A stretch of DNA of 50,548 bases from Natronorubrum halalkaliphilum (GTDB taxonomy: Archaea > Halobacteriota > Halobacteria > Halobacteriales > Natrialbaceae). The translations under genes were made by a program, and so were the position numbers. Positions 2-16,268 of this stretch are shown piece by piece. Position 1 is the stretch's first letter, and each line of letters opens with the position of its first letter. The notes beneath the pieces were generated by a model. That model did not search any database. It saw only the letters and a list, made by a program, of their open reading frames with translations, and was not told the origin of the DNA. The stretch lies in assembly GCF_009834785.1 (NCBI RefSeq), contig NZ_WUYX01000013.1:97820-148367 (forward strand), in the 5' to 3' direction.

Positions 2-964
2 GAAGCCGAGGACGAGCAAGAGGAAGAAGCCGAGGAAGAAGAAGCGGAAGAAGAGGAGGCCGAAGACGAGCAAGAAGAAGCCGAAGAGGGAACGGAAGAC
101 ACCGGCGAACTCGTCGAAGACGATCGTGAAGAGGGTCACGCCGACGATGCCGAAATGGTGTACGAGGGCGACGACGCCTCCGGCGTCTTGCACCTCGATC
201 TCGACGGCTTGTTCCTCGACCTGCTCGGCCTCGAGGTCAACCTGAACCCGGTCCAGCTCGACGTCTCGGCACGGCCGGGCGAGAACAACCTGCTCGGGAA
301 CCTGCTGTCCGCGGTGACGGGCCTGCTCGACGGCGCGATGTCGATTCCGGACAAGATCAAATCGGCGCTGAGCAAGCCGATGGAGATGCTCAGCGGCCTC
401 GTCGAGAAACCGAAGGAGTTCCTCAGCGGATTGTTCGAGAAACCGAAACAGCTGCTCACCGCGGTCGTGAACAAGCCGAAGGAATTGCTCAGCAAGCTCT
501 TCGGAATCGGCGGCGAGCAAGCGGAGAGCGCCGTGGAGAAAGCCGAAGAGGGTGCGGCGGAGTCCGGCGGCCGAATCGCCTCGTTCTTCAGTTGGCTGAA
601 AGGGGTCGTCACCAAGCCGGTATCGTGGCTCGGCGGACTCTTCGGCACCGGTGCGGACGGTGAAGCCGAGGAGGAAGCGGCAGAAACCGAAGACGGCGAG
701 CCAGCCGAGGCCGACGACGAAGAGGCCGAAGCCGATACGGATGAGGCCGAAGACGCGGCGGACGAATCTCCCGGTCGGATCTCCGCCGCCGGCAGCTGGC
801 TGAAAGAGAAGCTCCTCGGGCTCATCCCCGGCTTCCCGATCGAAGACCTCGTGGCGACGATCGTCAGCCAGGTCATCGAACAACTGATCGAGCAGCTAGA
901 ACCGGAGAGCGAACAGGACGAATCGGGCGACCAATCCGAAGCAGCATCACAGGCCGGAGCCTAA
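2..964 (+). CDS. Acidic repeat protein with amphipathic 11-residue repeats, 5' end outside window
   Basis: Function unknown. The reading frame is open from base 2, so the true start lies upstream; an internal ATG at 155 is not a convincing start because the acidic Glu-rich stretch before it is in the same frame. Order seen: Glu/Ala-rich acidic region (2-150), a hydrophobic Leu/Gly/Asn-rich segment (190-340, LGNLLSAVTGLLDG), four tandem 11-residue units beginning Lys-Pro (374-505), a Trp/Phe-containing amphipathic stretch (580-650), a second acidic region (660-770), then a hydrophobic/amphipathic C-terminus ending in acidic residues. The LGNLL...GLLDG segment resembles, from memory, a short motif seen in many uncharacterised bacterial proteins. 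It lies 2 bp before the next acidic gene and is probably cotranscribed with it. The amphipathic repeats suggest surface or membrane association, which is inference. Confidence 0.75.
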   Translation, partial: EAEDEQEEEAEEEEAEEEEAEDEQEEAEEGTEDTGELVEDDREEGHADDAEMVYEGDDASGVLHLDLDGLFLDLLGLEVNLNPVQLDVSARPGENNLLGNLLSAVTGLLDGAMSIPDKIKSALSKPMEMLSGLVEKPKEFLSGLFEKPKQLLTAVVNKPKELLSKLFGIGGEQAESAVEKAEEGAAESGGRIASFFSWLKGVVTKPVSWLGGLFGTGADGEAEEEAAETEDGEPAEADDEEAEADTDEAEDAADESPGRISAAGSWLKEKLLGLIPGFPIEDLVATIVSQVIEQLIEQLEPESEQDESGDQSEAASQAGA

Positions 965-966
965 TC

Positions 967-1479
967 ATGAGTGACGAATCCGAATCAGTGACACAGCGTA
1001 TCGACTACGAAAAGATCACCGACAACATCGACGTCGACGACCTGATCGAGGGCACCCAGTGGGAAGACGAAATCGACGAAGACCAGCCGCTCGGGGAGGC
1101 CCTGGGCGGCCAGATCGGTGCCCTCGTCGGACAGAAGGTCGGCGAGTCCATCGGCCGAACGATTGGCGATATGGTCGTCGACGAACTGTTCAGTCCCGAC
1201 GAGGAGCCAGCGGACGAGGACGAAGCGGAGGCTGAAGAGGACGAGGACGAAGAGTCCGACGCAGAAGAAGGCGAGGAAGAAGCGGAAGACGAGGATGAGG
1301 ACGAAGAAACTGACGCAGAAGAAGGCGAGGAAGAGGCGAAAGACGAGGATGCCGACGAAGGTGAGGGGACAGACGAGTCCGACGCCGAAGGCGAGGACGA
1401 ATCCGAGGAGACGGACGAAGCGGAGAGCCAGGACGAATCCGCGGACGACGATGCGGACAGTGAGGACGAGGAGGAATGA
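967..1479 (+). CDS. Acidic glycine-zipper protein, unknown function
   Basis: A 170-residue protein of unknown function. Residues 1-40 are acidic but varied. Residues about 45-75 carry a glycine zipper (GGQIGALVGQKVGESIGRTIGD), in which glycines recur every three to four residues, typical of packed or oligomeric membrane-inserting helices. The remaining 90 residues are almost only Glu, Asp, Ala and Ser and are expected to be disordered. It starts two bases after the upstream stop codon, so the two are translationally linked. The next gene carries a second version of the same zipper. No signal peptide, metal site or catalytic motif is visible. An opposite-strand open frame here is only the mirror of the repetitive codons. 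Confidence 0.75.
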   Translation: MSDESESVTQRIDYEKITDNIDVDDLIEGTQWEDEIDEDQPLGEALGGQIGALVGQKVGESIGRTIGDMVVDELFSPDEEPADEDEAEAEEDEDEESDAEEGEEEAEDEDEDEETDAEEGEEEAKDEDADEGEGTDESDAEGEDESEETDEAESQDESADDDADSEDEEE

Positions 1480-1527
1480 CGATGCGACCGAATCAGCCTT
1501 CCAGCACCGGATCGCTCCCCCCGGCCC

Positions 1528-1534
1528 GAGGTGA
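1528..1534 (+). promoter_or_regulatory. Shine-Dalgarno site deciding a start
   Basis: GAGGTGA matches the 3' end of haloarchaeal 16S rRNA and sits five bases before the ATG at 1540. The in-frame GTG at 1531 lies inside this site, so the ATG is the better start. Confidence 0.6.
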
Positions 1535-1539
1535 GCGCG

Positions 1540-2553
1540 ATGAGTGAGGCCGGGTTGAAACAGCTGGTCGCCGAGGAGGTAAGCGACCAACTCGAGGTCA
1601 GCGATATGCTCGGCGACGGCAGCCTCGAAGACGGGCTCGACGGCGGCGAAATCGGAGCCGCGGTCGGCCGCGAGTTCGGCGAACGCGTCGGCCGCGAGTT
1701 CGGCGCGGCGATCGGTCGCGGGATCCACGAGTCGATCGCCGAGGGCCTCGAAGAGGAGAAAGACCGCAAAGAGCTCCAGTCCGATCTCAAGTCGGCGATC
1801 CGCGATGCCATCACGCAGACCGTCGAAGACAACGAGGCCAAGGATTCGGTCCAGTCGCTGGCCCAGGACGTTACCGACGGAAGTAGCGTCGAGGGGCTTC
1901 TCGAGGGCGATGCGGACGAAAGCGAGAGTGAAGGCGAGCCCGAGAGTGCCGAGGGTGCCGAAAGTGAGGGTGACAGCGAGAGCGGCGGTGCGCAGGCGGC
2001 AGTCGAGTCGGTCGCCCAGGAAGTCAGTGAGGCCAGCGGCCTCGATGACGTTCTCGAGAGCGAAGACGAATCCGAAGCCGAAGATGCAGACGAGTCCGAA
2101 GACGAGGCGGCTGAATCCGAGGACGACGCCGAAGACGAAGCGGACTCCGCCGAGGATGCGACGGATGACGATGACGAGGGTGAAGACGACGCCGAAGCCG
2201 ACGAGGACGAGTCCACGGAGACGGAGTCGGAAGACGACGCCGAAGAGGAACCTGAGGCCGAGGACACCGAGGAAGACGCGGCGGACGAGTCCGAAGACGA
2301 GGCGGCCGAATCCGAGGACGACACAACCGAAGAAGCGACCGACGACGAGCCGTCGGTCGAGGACATCGAGGACCTCCGGAAGGATACCCTCAAGGACTTC
2401 CTCGGCGTGATGTCCTACGAGGACCTGCAGTCGGTGGCCAAAGACGTCGACGTGAAGGCGAACCTGAGCCGCGAGGAGATGACCGAAGAGATCATCGCGA
2501 CGGTGACGGACGACGAGGAAGACGAGTCGGAGGCGGAAGCGGAAGCCGAGTAG
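1540..2553 (+). CDS. Acidic protein with glycine zipper and SAP/Rho-N-like C-terminus
   Basis: A 337-residue protein of unknown function. Residues about 25-70 hold a glycine zipper (GGEIGAAVGREFGERVGREFG), followed by a charged helical stretch to about residue 110. The centre is a very acidic Glu/Asp/Ser tract interrupted at 1981-2049 by GGAQAAVESVAQEVSEASG, a module that recurs in the next gene. The last 60 residues regain ordered composition (LRKDTLKDFLGVMSYEDLQSVAKD), with two short helices that look like a SAP or Rho-N-type helical hairpin; that comparison is by eye only. The start at the ATG is chosen because of the Shine-Dalgarno site just before it. Same strand and close spacing put it in one operon with its neighbours. 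Confidence 0.75.
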   Translation: MSEAGLKQLVAEEVSDQLEVSDMLGDGSLEDGLDGGEIGAAVGREFGERVGREFGAAIGRGIHESIAEGLEEEKDRKELQSDLKSAIRDAITQTVEDNEAKDSVQSLAQDVTDGSSVEGLLEGDADESESEGEPESAEGAESEGDSESGGAQAAVESVAQEVSEASGLDDVLESEDESEAEDADESEDEAAESEDDAEDEADSAEDATDDDDEGEDDAEADEDESTETESEDDAEEEPEAEDTEEDAADESEDEAAESEDDTTEEATDDEPSVEDIEDLRKDTLKDFLGVMSYEDLQSVAKDVDVKANLSREEMTEEIIATVTDDEEDESEAEAEAE

Positions 2554-2690
2554 TTCGGTTACCGTCTTCGAATCGTCGAGTCTCCAGCGGCGGGCGAGAC
2601 GGAAATCGGAGCGGCGAATCGGCGACCGAACGGGGAATCGTGGACCGTGAACGATGACCGAGCGACGACAGCGAGAGACGGACGAGACAC

Positions 2691-3668
2691 ATGAGCCAGG
2701 ACCTTCACGAACGGGTGAGCGAGATACTGAACGACGCCGAGACCGCGAGCGGGTCGATGATCACCGACGAGAACGGCGAGTCGGACGAGACCGACTTGCT
2801 CGAGACCGCCGACCGGGCGAGCGACCTCCTGGACTCGGCCGAACCCGACGCGCTACTCGAGGCGGTCGGGCTGGACGAACTGCCGGACGGCAGCGAACCC
2901 GACTCGATCCCGGCGGCCATCGCGCGGGGCGATCCCGAGCAGGTCGAGGAGCTACAGCGGCTGCTCCGGCTAGCGAATCTCGCCGACGGAGACGAGGACG
3001 GCGCGCTCGAGGGGGCTGCCGGTGCGATACGGCAGTCGATTGCCGATAGCGAGGAGCGCGATGAAGACGAGGCGGCAGCCGAAGACGAAACGCCAGCCGA
3101 AGAAAGCGGTGAAACGGAGGGCGAGGACGACACGGACGAAGAAAGCGAAAGCGACGGGAGCGTCGTCCGAGACGCGATCGAGTCGGTTACCGCCGACGAA
3201 ACCGACGAGTCCGAAAGCGAGAACGGCGGGGCTCGAGCGGCCGTCGAGTCGGTCGCCGAAGGCGTCAGCGAGGCCAGCGGGCTCGACGATGCGTTCGGAG
3301 GTGACGATGACGACGGAGCCGAGACCGATGCGGACGACGAGTCGGACGGCGACCTCGGCGAACAGCTTCGATCGGCGATGGAATCGACGGTTTCGGACGT
3401 CGGCGACGACCTCGGGGGACTGCAAGAGCGACTCCAGAGTGCAAGTGCTAGTTCCGTTGGTGGTGAGACTGAGTCCGACGACGAGGCCGAAGCAGAAGCC
3501 GAAGCAGACGAGGACGACGGACTCATCGACTCGGGGCTCGGATCGGATCAGGACCGCGGTACCGCCTCGGGAAGCGGAACTCGCCACTCGACGATGGCGC
3601 CGCCGCCGTCGGAACGCGCGGACATGAAGGGGACCGCGCGTCACTCGACGATGCCGGATAAGCACTGA
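2691..3668 (+). CDS. Acidic protein with duplicated RHSTM C-terminal tail
   Basis: A 325-residue protein of unknown function. The N-terminal 110 residues are helical and moderately acidic, with several DLLD/ALLEAVG segments. A Glu/Asp/Ser-rich middle follows, containing GGARAAVESVAEGVSEASG (3225-3290), nearly the same as the module in the preceding gene. The tail is strikingly different: about 30 basic-to-neutral residues with the unit GT-x-RHSTM twice, separated by a Pro-rich linker (APPPSERADMK). Such a duplicated short tail suggests a binding or sorting signal, which is inference. It is the last of the acidic run; the next gene has its own promoter-like region. Confidence 0.75.
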   Translation: MSQDLHERVSEILNDAETASGSMITDENGESDETDLLETADRASDLLDSAEPDALLEAVGLDELPDGSEPDSIPAAIARGDPEQVEELQRLLRLANLADGDEDGALEGAAGAIRQSIADSEERDEDEAAAEDETPAEESGETEGEDDTDEESESDGSVVRDAIESVTADETDESESENGGARAAVESVAEGVSEASGLDDAFGGDDDDGAETDADDESDGDLGEQLRSAMESTVSDVGDDLGGLQERLQSASASSVGGETESDDEAEAEAEADEDDGLIDSGLGSDQDRGTASGSGTRHSTMAPPPSERADMKGTARHSTMPDKH

Positions 3669-3772: not shown

Positions 3773-4252
3773 ATGACGAGACACGTTAGCGAGACGCAGG
3801 TTCGCCACTGGCTGGACGAGACGGCGGTCCGTAGCGTGACGGCACACTCCGACGAAGACACCGAGTTCAACCTCCAGGTCGAACTCTCACAGCTTCCGGT
3901 TCACGTGATCAAAGAGGAGGAGTTCGGCCCCGTCCGAATCGTCGGTCGGAGCGGGTTCGACACCGAACGGACCAAAGAGTTGCTCCGTGACGACCAGAAC
4001 CGGGGCGAACTCCTCGAGTACATCGGCCCGATGCTGGCGGCGACGCCGGGGTTCTACACGTTTCTCGACCCGAACGGGGACTCCTGCCGACTGCAACGGG
4101 CGGAGACGGTACAGGTCGAGTATCGGCTCTACCCGGACGAAGCCCGTCAGCAGGCGTTGATGGACGGCATCATGTCGATCGCGACGAGCATGCGCTACGT
4201 TCGGAACGTCGTCGCGGTCGTCGGTGCGCGAGCGCCGGCCGACGATGCATAG
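3773..4252 (+). CDS. DUF2299-like archaeal protein
   Basis: A 159-residue soluble protein of unknown function. The N-terminal pattern (VRHWLDETAVRSVTAHSDEDTEFN) and the hydrophobic beta pattern that follows resemble the archaeal DUF2299 family as I remember it; this needs a profile search. No catalytic motif is visible. Composition is ordinary, unlike the acidic genes upstream. The ATG lies just downstream of a TATA-like box, which points to a leaderless transcript. It may belong functionally to the acidic cluster because it follows it on the same strand, but the 104-bp gap with its own promoter means this is only a possibility. Confidence 0.6.
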   Translation: MTRHVSETQVRHWLDETAVRSVTAHSDEDTEFNLQVELSQLPVHVIKEEEFGPVRIVGRSGFDTERTKELLRDDQNRGELLEYIGPMLAATPGFYTFLDPNGDSCRLQRAETVQVEYRLYPDEARQQALMDGIMSIATSMRYVRNVVAVVGARAPADDA

Positions 4253-12150: not shown

Positions 12151-14127
12151 ATGTCACAGGAGGATGCCAACCTCGAGGCTCGTCTCGAGGAACAGGAAAC
12201 GTTCGAACCGCCCGAGTCGTTCGTCGAACAGGCGAACGTCACGGATCCGGCGATCTACGAGGAGTTCGAGGAGAACTGGCCCGAATGCTGGGAGCGCGCC
12301 GCAGACCTGCTCTCGTGGGACGAAGAGTACGACACCGTCCTCGAAGACGGTGACGCGCCGTTCTACGAGTGGTTCACCGGCGGCGAACTGAACGCGTCGT
12401 ACAACTGTCTCGATCGCCACGTCGAGGAGGGCCGCGCCGACAGCGCGGCCATCGAGTGGGAGGGCGAACTCGGCGAGACGCGAAGCTACACCTACGCCGA
12501 ACTGTTGGACGAAGTCGAGGACTTCGCGGCGACGCTGCGCGACCTCGGCGTCGAGGAGGACGACGTCGTCACCCTCTACATGCCGATGATTCCGGAGTTG
12601 CCGATCGCCATGCTGGCGTGTGCCCGCATCGGCGCGCCACACAGCGTCGTCTTCGCCGGTTTCTCGGCCGACGCGCTCGCGACCCGGATGAACTCGGCCG
12701 AAAGCGAGTATCTGGTCACCTGCGACGGCTACTACCGTCGCGGCGACGCGCTGGATCACATCTCGAAGGCCAACGAGGGCCTCGAGGGCGTCGAGCACGA
12801 GGTGTCCGACGTCGTGGTTGTCGACCGACTGGGCGACGACCTCTCCCACGACCTCGCGGACAACCAACACGACTACGACGAACTGGTGGCCGACCACGAA
12901 GGATCGACGGTCGAGCCCGTTTCCCGCGACGCGGAGGACATGCTGTTCCTGATGTACACGTCGGGGACGACCGGGAAGCCCAAGGGCGTGAAACACACGA
13001 CCGGCGGCTATCTGGCCTACACCGCCTGGACGAGCCGCGCCGTCCTGGACATCGAAGCCGACGACACCTACTGGTGTTCGGCCGATATCGGCTGGATCAC
13101 GGGCCACTCCTACATCGTCTACGGGCCGCTCGCACTGGGCACGACGAGCGTGATGTACGAGGGAACGCCGGATTATCCCGACAAGGATCGACTCTGGGAG
13201 ATCGTCGAGAAGAACGACGTCGACATCTTCTACACCGCGCCGACGGCTATCCGCGCGTTCATGAAATGGGGCGAGGAGTACACCGAGAACCACGACCTCT
13301 CCTCGCTGCGACTGCTCGGCACCGTCGGCGAGCCGATCAACCCGCGGGCCTGGAAGTGGTACTACAAACACATCGGCAACGAGGAGTGTCCCATCGTCGA
13401 CACCTGGTGGCAGACCGAAACTGGCGGCATGATGATCACCACGCTGCCGGGGATCAACGAGATGAAACCCGGCTCTGCGGGGCCGCCCCTGCCGGGTATC
13501 GACGCACGGATCGTCGACGCACAGGGTGATGAGGTTTCGGCCGGCGAGGCCGGCTACGTCACGGTCAACAACCCGTGGCCCGGGATGCTCCGAACGCTGT
13601 ACAACAACGACGAGCGATTCATCGAGGAGTACTGGCAGGAGTACTCCGACGAGGGGTCCGACGAATGGGTCTACTTCCCGGAAGACGGCGCGAAAATCGA
13701 CGACGACGGCTACATCACCGTCCTCGGCCGCGTCGACGACGTCATCAACGTCTCCGGCCACCGCCTCGGCACGATGGAGATCGAATCGGCCGTCGTCGGC
13801 GTCGAAGGGATCGCCGAAGCCGCCGTCGTCGGCGGCGACCACGAGGTCAAAGGCGAGGCCGTCTACGTCTACGCCATCTCCGAAGACGGCACCGAGACGG
13901 ACGAGGAACTCGAGGAACGCGTCGTTGAGGGCGTCCTCGATTCGATCGGCCCGATCGCGAAACCGGAGGAAGTGATCTTCACGCCCGAACTGCCGAAGAC
14001 GCGGTCGGGCAAGATCATGCGCCGCCTGCTCGAGAACATCGCGAGCGGCGACGAACTGGGCAACACGTCGACGCTTCGGAATCCGGAGGTCGTCGACGAG
14101 ATCGCCAAACAGGCCGAGGGAGACTAA
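12151..14127 (+). CDS. acs: Acetate-CoA ligase (AMP-forming), paralogue 2
   Basis: A 658-residue acetyl-CoA synthetase, the same length as the copy at 7510 and collinear with it. It has the ATP loop YTSGTTGKPKG (residues 269-279), WWQTETGG, canonical hinge and CoA region GRVDDVINVSGHRLGT and C-terminal PKTRSGKIMRR with Lys621. The ribose-binding segment reads YFPEDGAK: the Asp is kept but the usual Gly before it is Glu. The start is the ATG giving MSQEDANLEARLEEQ, an acidic N-terminus normal for halophiles; an in-frame ATG 81 bases upstream lacks coding character. The 265-bp upstream region has several TATA-like stretches (GTATAATCGGATATAG, about 12027-12042). It is followed by a symporter for its probable substrate, acetate. 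Confidence 0.93.
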   Translation: MSQEDANLEARLEEQETFEPPESFVEQANVTDPAIYEEFEENWPECWERAADLLSWDEEYDTVLEDGDAPFYEWFTGGELNASYNCLDRHVEEGRADSAAIEWEGELGETRSYTYAELLDEVEDFAATLRDLGVEEDDVVTLYMPMIPELPIAMLACARIGAPHSVVFAGFSADALATRMNSAESEYLVTCDGYYRRGDALDHISKANEGLEGVEHEVSDVVVVDRLGDDLSHDLADNQHDYDELVADHEGSTVEPVSRDAEDMLFLMYTSGTTGKPKGVKHTTGGYLAYTAWTSRAVLDIEADDTYWCSADIGWITGHSYIVYGPLALGTTSVMYEGTPDYPDKDRLWEIVEKNDVDIFYTAPTAIRAFMKWGEEYTENHDLSSLRLLGTVGEPINPRAWKWYYKHIGNEECPIVDTWWQTETGGMMITTLPGINEMKPGSAGPPLPGIDARIVDAQGDEVSAGEAGYVTVNNPWPGMLRTLYNNDERFIEEYWQEYSDEGSDEWVYFPEDGAKIDDDGYITVLGRVDDVINVSGHRLGTMEIESAVVGVEGIAEAAVVGGDHEVKGEAVYVYAISEDGTETDEELEERVVEGVLDSIGPIAKPEEVIFTPELPKTRSGKIMRRLLENIASGDELGNTSTLRNPEVVDEIAKQAEGD

Positions 14128-14184
14128 CTCGGCCGATTTCTTCTACTACTGAGCGAGAGCCGACCAATACAGAGCACACGGAAT

Positions 14185-14598
14185 ATGTCAGATAATAACG
14201 AACACGATTCGACCGAGACGTCAGATCCAGTCGAGACGGACGGCGGCGTCGCGACGGAAGCGTACCTCGATAAGGAAATAAACATCTTCAAGCCGGCGAC
14301 GCCGTTCATGCGAGACCATCTCCGAGTAATCTGGCTCTCGTTTATCGCGTGGATCCTCGTCGTCTTCGGCCCGACGACGGCGACGTTTCTCGCACCGGAC
14401 CTGATGACCGGGACGGAGGTTTTGGGCGGGTTCCCGCTCCACTTCTTCCTGGCCGCGATCTTCACGCCGCTTGCTGCCCTGTTGCTCTCGGTCGCCTACG
14501 CGATGCAGCGCGACCGACTCGACACCAAGTACGGCATCTCCCACGAGGAGGAAGTAGAGTCCGGCGGCACCGTCGCTGCCGACGGAGGTGAAGAATGA
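14185..14598 (+). CDS. DUF4212 sodium/solute symporter small subunit
   Basis: A 137-residue membrane protein. After an acidic 30-residue N-terminus come two transmembrane helices (VIWLSFIAWILVVFGPTTATF and FFLAAIFTPLAALLLSVAY) and the family ending YAMQRDRLDTKYGI. DUF4212 proteins are the small partner of VC_2705-type sodium/solute symporters and are normally encoded just before them, as here. The stop overlaps the start of the large subunit in ATGA, which ties translation of the two. Located 57 bp after acs, it is probably in the same transcription unit. Confidence 0.92.
   Translation: MSDNNEHDSTETSDPVETDGGVATEAYLDKEINIFKPATPFMRDHLRVIWLSFIAWILVVFGPTTATFLAPDLMTGTEVLGGFPLHFFLAAIFTPLAALLLSVAYAMQRDRLDTKYGISHEEEVESGGTVAADGGEE
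14584..14591 (+). promoter_or_regulatory. Strong Shine-Dalgarno before overlapping start
   Basis: GGAGGTGA is a full-length match to the 16S rRNA anti-Shine-Dalgarno sequence and lies three bases before the ATG at 14595, inside the end of the small-subunit gene. It supports coupled, high-level translation of the symporter large subunit. Confidence 0.65.
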
Positions 14599-16268
14599 TC
14601 GAAGCGATCGACCCGGTTATCCTGCAAGAAACCGCCCTCGACGTCGGAGAGTTCAAGCTCGTTCCGGCGCTGACGGTGGCCGCAATGTTGCTGTTGTTCC
14701 TCGGCGTCGGCTACTTCTTCCGCGTCGCCGCGGTCGACGAACTGTGGGTCGCCGGTCGATCCATCGGTTCGATCGAGAACGGGATGGCAATCGGTGCCAA
14801 CTGGATGAGCGCCGCGTCGTATCTCGGCGTCGCGTCGCTGATCGCGCTTTCGGGATACTTCGGACTCGCGTACGTCGTCGGCTGGACGACGGGCTACTTC
14901 ATCCTCCTGATCTTCCTGGCGGCGCAGTTCCGCCGGTTCGGGAAGTACACGGCCCCCGACTTCGTCGGCGACCGGTTCTACTCCGATTGGGCGCGGGGCA
15001 TCGCCGCGTTCACCACGCTCGCGATCGCCTTTACCTACGCAATCGGGCAGGCCAGCGGGATGGGACTGATGGCTCAGTACATCTTCGGCATCTCCTACGA
15101 GGCCGGCGTGATCATACTGATGGCCGTTACCATCGGATACGTCGCCCTCTCGGGGATGCTGGGGACGACGAAGAACATGGCCATCCAGTACGTCATCCTG
15201 ATCATCGCGTTCACGCTCGGTCTCTACGCCGTCGGCTGGACGCAAGGCTACTCGACCGTCTTGCCGTACCTCGAGTTCGGGAGCGAGGTCTCGGCGGCGG
15301 CCGAAATCGAGACCCAGTTCGTCGAACCGTTCGCGAACGCGGGCTACTACGCGTGGATCGCCTTGGCCTTTAGCCTGATCGTCGGGACCTGTGGATTACC
15401 GCACGTCCTCGTCAGGTTCTATACGGTCGACAACGAGCGGACCGCCCGCTGGTCGACCGTCTGGGGTCTGTTCTTCATCTGCCTGCTGTACTGGGGGACG
15501 GCTACCTACGCCGCGTTCGGCGGCCTGCTCTACGACAGCGAGGTGACGAACGGCGGTGGATTCGCCGGCGACGGCGGCATGTCCGGTTCTGAGGCCGACG
15601 CCCTCGTCGTGCTGACCGCCCAACTCGCCGACCTGCCGACGTGGCTCGTCGGGTTCGTCGCTGCCGGCGCGGTCGCCGCTGCACTCGCGACGACTGCCGG
15701 ACTGTTCATCACCGCCTCCTCGGCGGCGGCCCACGACATCTACACCAACCTCTACAAGGAAGACGCGACCCAGCGCGAGCAGATGCTCGTCGGCCGCGCG
15801 ACGATCGTCGGGATCGGGATCCTCGTCGCGCTGATCGGGCTGAACCCGCCGGCGCTCATCGGCGAACTCGTCGCGATGTCGTTCGCGATCGCCGGAACCG
15901 TCTTCTTCCCCGTGTTCTTCCTCGGTCTCTGGTGGGAGAACACGACTCGCGAGGGCGCGCTCGCGGGCATGCTCGTCGGGATCTTGCTCTCGTTCGGTGC
16001 AATCCTGAACGACACTGCGATCCCGATGTATACCGGCGTCGAAGAGGCGGTCATCCCCGGAGTCGCAACCTACCTCCCGGGAACGTCGTCCGCACTGATC
16101 GGCGTGCCGGTCGTCTTCGCCGTCATCATCGTCGTCTCGGTGGCCACGGACGAACCGCCACAGGAGATCAAACGCCTCGTCCGTCAGTGTCACAGCCCGG
16201 AGCCGATGCAACAGATGGAATCCGCCGAAGACGCCGCCGCTGACGGCGGCACCCCCGCAGACGACTAA
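14595..16268 (+). CDS. Sodium:solute symporter large subunit, probable acetate uptake
   Basis: A 557-residue SSS-family transporter with about 13 transmembrane helices. Family features include VDELWVAGRSIGSIENGMAIGANWMSAASYLG near the N-terminus and the later GTCGLPHVLVRFYTVDN, the SSS signature region with GLPH. It couples solute entry to sodium at the cell membrane. Monocarboxylates such as acetate are the likely substrate because it is encoded directly after acetyl-CoA synthetase and resembles ActP-like permeases; the sequence alone does not prove this. It starts within the end of the small-subunit gene. The C-terminus is acidic and Ala-rich. Confidence 0.92.
   Translation: MIEAIDPVILQETALDVGEFKLVPALTVAAMLLLFLGVGYFFRVAAVDELWVAGRSIGSIENGMAIGANWMSAASYLGVASLIALSGYFGLAYVVGWTTGYFILLIFLAAQFRRFGKYTAPDFVGDRFYSDWARGIAAFTTLAIAFTYAIGQASGMGLMAQYIFGISYEAGVIILMAVTIGYVALSGMLGTTKNMAIQYVILIIAFTLGLYAVGWTQGYSTVLPYLEFGSEVSAAAEIETQFVEPFANAGYYAWIALAFSLIVGTCGLPHVLVRFYTVDNERTARWSTVWGLFFICLLYWGTATYAAFGGLLYDSEVTNGGGFAGDGGMSGSEADALVVLTAQLADLPTWLVGFVAAGAVAAALATTAGLFITASSAAAHDIYTNLYKEDATQREQMLVGRATIVGIGILVALIGLNPPALIGELVAMSFAIAGTVFFPVFFLGLWWENTTREGALAGMLVGILLSFGAILNDTAIPMYTGVEEAVIPGVATYLPGTSSALIGVPVVFAVIIVVSVATDEPPQEIKRLVRQCHSPEPMQQMESAEDAAADGGTPADD

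Follow-up and report, generated by a model that had tools for sequence, protein, structure and literature searches.

Four acidic proteins are encoded in tandem at the locus

We analyzed a stretch of 50,548 nucleotides from Natronorubrum halalkaliphilum (contig NZ_WUYX01000013.1; G000:C22:97820-148367), which we refer to as the window, and focused on four tandem open reading frames (ORFs), g1 to g4, on the + strand at window 2-3668. A first-pass annotation, made from the sequence alone, had described the products as acidic, low-complexity proteins forming one undescribed functional unit. The comparisons described below strongly support the view that the four genes are an unrecognized set of gas-vesicle accessory proteins, that is, a new set of components of a known system. 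Their features in the window are:

2-964, + strand: g1, 3' part; acidic tracts, Leu/Gly module, 11-residue repeats, and C-terminal amphipathic helices
182-334, + strand: conserved module of g1, GVLHLDLDGLFLDLLGLEVNLNPVQLDVSARPGENNLLGNLLSAVTGLLDG; 51 columns, 20 of them invariant in a comparison of diverse genera and one relative from another family
374-505, + strand: four 11-residue amphipathic repeats of g1 (KPMEMLSGLVE, KPKEFLSGLFE, KPKQLLTAVVN, KPKELLSKLFG)
770-898, + strand: amphipathic helices at the C-terminus of g1, also conserved outside the genus, with invariant P228 and E230
967-1479, + strand: g2; small N-terminal domain, glycine zipper (about 1093-1167), and acidic tail
1540-2553 (start at 1531 or 1540), + strand: g3; glycine zipper (about 1645-1737) homologous to that of g2, and acidic linker
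about 2350-2514, + strand: three-helix SAP-like C-terminal end of g3, from the predicted structure
2691-3668, + strand: g4, a GvpI paralogue by profile comparison; helical domain at about 2796-2984 and, at 3576-3665, a doubled RHSTM tail

The window opens within g1. The gene starts at G000:C22:97436, 384 bases upstream, and the part outside the window is its acidic 5' part. An assembly gap of 10 Ns inside the g1 acidic repeat (L009:17812-17821) adjoins window base 1, so the window begins at a scaffold join, and the exact length of g1 is uncertain. Further members had been expected upstream. We found a PQQ/WD-type gene and a cobalamin cluster there instead, and conclude that the unit has no additional members before g1.

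The four proteins are more acidic than their neighbors. The combined fraction of Asp and Glu in g1 to g4 was 0.28, 0.50, 0.40, and 0.31, compared to 0.185 +/- 0.030 (maximum 0.26) in 39 neighboring ORFs. Low-complexity windows made up 9%, 29%, 24%, and 0% of the four proteins, compared to 0.1% in the neighbors. The extreme acidity reported initially thus applies to all four, and the low complexity to g1 to g3; g4 is acidic, yet not low-complexity by this measure.

The ordered modules named in the first-pass annotation were all present: the Leu/Gly segment, the 11-residue repeats, the two zippers, the SAP-like end, the doubled tail, and a segment common to g3 and g4 (GGA.AAVESVA..VSEASGLDD). 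The 11-residue repeats of g1 (KPxxxLxxLxx-type) had a high helical hydrophobic moment relative to shuffled sequences (p ~0.0002), and their number differs by species, with none in many. g2 is homologous to g3 (hhalign 98.6%), and, judged by profile comparison, the two are a glycine-zipper family of their own. The C-terminus of g3 has three confidently predicted helices.

The proteins are undescribed at the level of profiles, as had been proposed. Scans of Pfam and NCBIfam with all four proteins and with single modules gave no significant family, a search of solved structures with the g1 module gave no match, and no paper that we found in the open-access literature describes the unit. Comparison of g1 with GvpA and GvpC profiles ruled out a GvpA-like or GvpC-like sequence. 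We were unable to confirm a possible likeness of the g1 module to bacterial NLLGNLLCAVAGLLD-type secreted proteins: on plasmids, a query of this type had no match. Because no library profile detected a link to gas vesicles, comparative genomics was required to find one.

The four genes are one conserved unit

The order g1-g2-g3-g4 was identical in all 33 loci that we read, representing more than 20 genera; for example, Halostagnicola sp. A-GB9-2 has all four genes in unchanged order. This conservation is far above chance, and we conclude that the four genes are one conserved unit, in agreement with the functional unit originally proposed. The flanks vary: cobalamin, UspA, and acyl-CoA synthetase neighbors are found in some loci and are absent from others. 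A link of the unit to the neighboring cobalamin cluster was ruled out, since the unit follows the presence of gvp genes and many genomes have other flanking genes.

Two other features adjoin the unit. A weakly DUF2299-like gene lies directly 3' (window 3773-4252) and is next to the unit in several relatives too. A DNA element, GCAYACGCAAGSSMAAYYACCACA, is located shortly before g1 and outside the window (L009:17384-17407), and is strongly conserved in most Natrialbaceae. It is probably the promoter of the unit, though conserved more than a promoter should be. With up to three mismatches allowed, the genome contained one site only, and no convincing site lay near the gvp genes. A regulon shared by the unit and the gvp genes was therefore unsupported.

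The unit occurs only in genomes with gas-vesicle genes

Gas vesicles are hollow protein floats of salt-loving archaea. A tblastn search with a consensus of the g1 module across the family gave a weak match on a plasmid of Halocatena salina, inside a gas-vesicle cluster. This cluster consists of gvpF-G-H, three unannotated genes, and gvpJ-K-L-M. The three genes, joined by overlaps of 4 nucleotides (nt), encode a relative of g1, a protein with a glycine zipper, and a protein of GvpI type. Based on the position of this match, we tested whether the unit tracks gas vesicles.

Within the family Natrialbaceae (125 genomes), gvpA was present in 112 genomes and g1 in 110, and no genome had g1 without gvpA (Fisher 7e-16, assuming independent genomes, which these are not). 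All 13 genomes without gvpA also lacked g1, although the assemblies of three of them (G121, G123, G124) are incomplete. Two genomes, G001 and G066, had gvpA and not g1, and G013 was positive for g1 only at an E-value of 7.7e-4 in the family search and negative by the module profile. The residual g1 of G066 (L168:8600-9306) lacks the module and the C-terminus and is in effect a natural g1 deletion.

The same pattern held across the class. Among 391 haloarchaeal genomes, 130 (about one third of those sampled) had the g1 module and 162 had gvpA, and all 130 genomes with the module carried gvpA, including 42 of 42 outside the family. Co-occurrence with gas-vesicle genes, one of the checks suggested initially, was thus complete for the genomes with the module. 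A second and diverged copy of the module was also seen in L143, G023, G087, G315, G375, and G392; the one in L143 had no gvp or unit genes nearby within the stretch read. In the Halalkalicoccus plasmid gvp region (L101), the unit was not among the annotated genes; no further search was made there.

The unit is linked to gvp genes and is lost with them

In most Natrialbaceae the unit is far from the main gvp cluster. In the window's genome the cluster lies on another contig (C32; L086), with gvpM, L, K, J, I, H, G, and F divergent from gvpA, N, and O, and without gvpC, indicating that here the unit acts in trans. In other genomes the two are adjacent. In G115 (L087) the whole unit directly follows gvpA-gvpO, in this arrangement:

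12468-13388: g1
13385-13912: g2
14026-14766: g3
14785-15654: g4

All four genes are beside gvpO and convergent with it in L140, and g1 adjoins gvpO, in some cases along with a zipper gene, in L135, L137, L138, and L142. In five loci outside the family (L073, L136, L139, L141, L145), g1 and a zipper gene are between gvpH and gvpI, joined in L073 by 4-nt overlaps. The distance between the module and gvpA was about 1.5-4.1 kilobases in at least 16 genomes. A separate arrangement, in which g1 and a g3-type gene are divergent from a GvpI-type gene, was seen at L147:8988-11090, where the gvp cluster is absent from the stretch read.

Kinship among genomes weakens the Fisher values, and co-loss addresses kinship. 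In genus g16, three gvp-less genomes (G054, G063, G070) have no intact unit at the conserved syntenic site, and in a two-protein tree each is sister to a different genome that has both the unit and gvp genes. Remnants persist in G054: a 5' fragment of g1 without the module, and frame-broken pieces of g3. These results indicate three independent joint losses of gvp genes and the unit, on a small tree in which some support values are modest (0.72-0.97).

g4 is related to GvpI

Comparison of g4 with GvpI gave an hhalign probability of 99.6% (E 7e-23, 257 columns), and GvpI genes matched a hidden Markov model of g4 at 45-64 bits. Acidic control pairs (g3-GvpI, g1-GvpA, g1-GvpC) scored about zero, indicating that the match of g4 to GvpI is not due to composition. 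The C-terminal ends are also alike: that of Halobacterium GvpI is KNPAAHSTMP...RNSHSTVP...ERLYGQRL, that of the long Natrialbaceae GvpI is SRNPTAASTMP...ARHSTVP...RIYGRRF, and that of g4 is RHSTMAPPPSERADM...RHSTMP. The position between gvpH and gvpJ is held by a separate long GvpI in the window's genome; from these alignments and positions, g4 is a paralogue of GvpI rather than an orthologue. In Natrialbaceae gvp clusters, the long GvpI was located at:

L086:6080-7084
L103:6290-7201

The long GvpI has been noticed in Natrialba magadii, and the second, trans-encoded paralogue has not (PMC3403918). GvpI binds GvpH, GvpF, and GvpL, and its deletion results in extremely long vesicles (PMC7688916). 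Two further observations concern GvpI itself. In Natronorubrum bangense the long GvpI is annotated as 'hypothetical protein' despite its gvpH-gvpJ position and GvpI tail, and the GvpI-type protein encoded 3' of two gvpO genes in Halocatena marina (L099:11952-13061) is extended by an additional N-terminal part.

The g1 module and GvpC are mutually exclusive

GvpC (E below 1e-14) was found in 14 of the 391 genomes, all gvp-bearing, and none of these 14 was among the 130 with the module (hypergeometric 9e-12 if genomes are independent, which they are not). Both types occur within a genus: in g32, G134 has the module and G140 has GvpC, and in g44, G387 has the module and G153 and G161 have GvpC. 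A clear GvpD was absent from six of the 14 GvpC genomes, and these six also lack the module. The exclusion therefore follows GvpC and not GvpD, which favors the view that the unit substitutes for GvpC.

Among the Natrialbaceae sampled, no GvpC was found beyond one weak match. Natrialbaceae gvp clusters have been described as lacking gvpC and gvpDE (PMC4390858, PMC3403918); PMC9501494, contrary to these two, lists gvpC for Natrialbaceae clusters.

Discussion

A role of the unit in gas vesicles is strongly supported by strict co-occurrence, physical linkage, co-loss, and the homology of g4 to GvpI, as judged from genome comparisons. Beyond this, we think it probable that the unit is a gas-vesicle accessory unit, encoded in trans in most Natrialbaceae, that works in GvpC's place, supplying the function of GvpC where the gvp cluster lacks it. 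We propose that the Leu/Gly module and the amphipathic helices would attach g1 to the vesicle shell or the growing ribs, and that the long acidic stretches of this protein would be exposed to the high-salt cytoplasm. The zipper proteins g2 and g3 could self-associate and scaffold g1, and the HST[MV] tail of g4 might anchor the unit to the assembly complex of GvpF, GvpL, and GvpH, where g4 could help set vesicle length and shape. A broader proposal, that haloarchaea have two alternative routes to reinforce and size vesicles, either a GvpC coat or an unrelated system of g1, zipper proteins, and a GvpI paralogue that takes its place and is mostly encoded in trans, is one that we hold tentatively and rate at somewhat under an even chance.

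Several results weigh against an accessory unit that works in place of GvpC. There were gvp genes without the unit in G001 and G013, and in G066, which retains g2-g4 and the gvp cluster, the g1 module is gone. Of the 162 gvp genomes, 18 had neither GvpC nor the module, indicating that replacement of GvpC is not obligatory, and the exclusivity may mark two cluster lineages instead of replacement. No homology of g1 to either GvpC or GvpA was detected (hhalign probability for GvpC, 0.05%), and many g1 orthologues are without the 11-residue repeats. The predicted structure of g1 was poor (mean predicted local distance difference test score 60, module unstructured), and we did not use it for interpretation. 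Finally, several Natrialbaceae with gvp clusters have been reported to be vesicle-negative (PMC4390858).

The main rival is that the proteins are assembly factors, an extra chaperone or nucleation set working with GvpF-M and not coating the finished vesicle, the lack of GvpC being a separate matter. In its favor, the genes belong to the accessory operon rather than the gvpA-N-O arm at the five loci outside the family that have them between gvpH and gvpI; the accessory protein GvpI is a relative of g4; and zipper and acidic proteins could be chaperone-like. An assembly role alone does not predict the strict exclusion of GvpC, which holds also within genera, and we regard this explanation as unlikely, but worth serious attention. 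If the unit stood in for GvpD and GvpE as a regulator of gvp expression and g3 bound DNA by its SAP-like end, this would account for the weak and distant GvpD matches, none of them clear, in the module genomes tested. A regulatory role is less likely than one in assembly, and we consider it improbable: the six GvpC genomes without a clear GvpD likewise lack the module, the SAP fold matches of g3 are not significant, and the conserved element that precedes g1 has no second site in the genome and so gives no regulon signal common to the unit and the gvp genes.

Two further explanations would remove the unit from vesicle function altogether. If the genes were passengers, co-inherited with one lineage of gvp clusters and without action on vesicles, the GvpC exclusivity could be a mark of two cluster lineages, and the absence of the unit from some gvp genomes would be expected. 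We give this little credence, because the unit is mostly distant from the gvp cluster and yet was lost alongside it three times in one genus, decaying in place, and because g4 is a GvpI paralogue by profile comparison. The first-pass annotation had favored a condensate, a membrane-coating assembly, or an intracellular compartment, with profile hits to gas vesicle accessory proteins counting against a new system. The acidic disordered tracts and amphipathic modules behind this idea are real, and the unit does involve an intracellular compartment, the gas vesicle. But none of the 391 genomes had the module without gvpA, and the unit is directly linked to gvp genes. This occurrence and linkage, together with the relationship of g4 to GvpI, speak against independence from gas vesicles and make an undescribed condensate, coat, or storage compartment unrelated to them highly improbable.

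Gas vesicles serve as a model of protein organelles and as tools in ultrasound and antigen display. The parts list of haloarchaeal vesicles has been taken to be the clustered gvp genes (PMC9501494), and literature tables of Natrialbaceae clusters give clustered genes alone (PMC4390858, PMC9501494). Our findings would add four unannotated proteins to this list, encoded mostly outside the cluster. If the unit does take the place of GvpC, then the 11-gene GvpC-less clusters, sufficient according to the literature, would be incomplete without it, and g1 would be a second engineerable coat. How Natrialbaceae lacking gvpC and gvpDE build vesicles, or why they are reported not to have them (PMC4390858), becomes a testable question.

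The four proteins can be compared to known families and systems. The zipper of g2 weakly resembles those of the glycine-zipper families PF13488 and PF13441 (E 0.05-0.3), but at 14.1 bits falls below the gathering cut-off of 25. The end of g3 gave profile and structure matches to SAP domains, including DEK and plant SAP structures, that fell short of significance (Pfam E 0.18; Foldseek E about 9, root-mean-square deviation 0.9-2.1 Å over 41-49 columns). Like GvpC, g1 is acidic, has amphipathic helical repeats in species-variable number, and occurs only in gvp genomes that lack GvpC. Unlike GvpC, to which it is not homologous, g1 has repeats of 11 residues rather than long ones and an extra Leu/Gly module, and belongs to a four-gene unit that is mostly encoded in trans; it is at most a possible functional substitute. 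g4 matches the long Natrialbaceae GvpI in its helical domain and in its repeated [H/Y]ST[MV] tail, a tail found also in Halobacterium GvpI, and differs in being a second copy, encoded in trans, without the last tail block of GvpI (RxYGxRF). Both forms are present in one genome, the long GvpI in the gvp cluster (L086) and g4 in the window.

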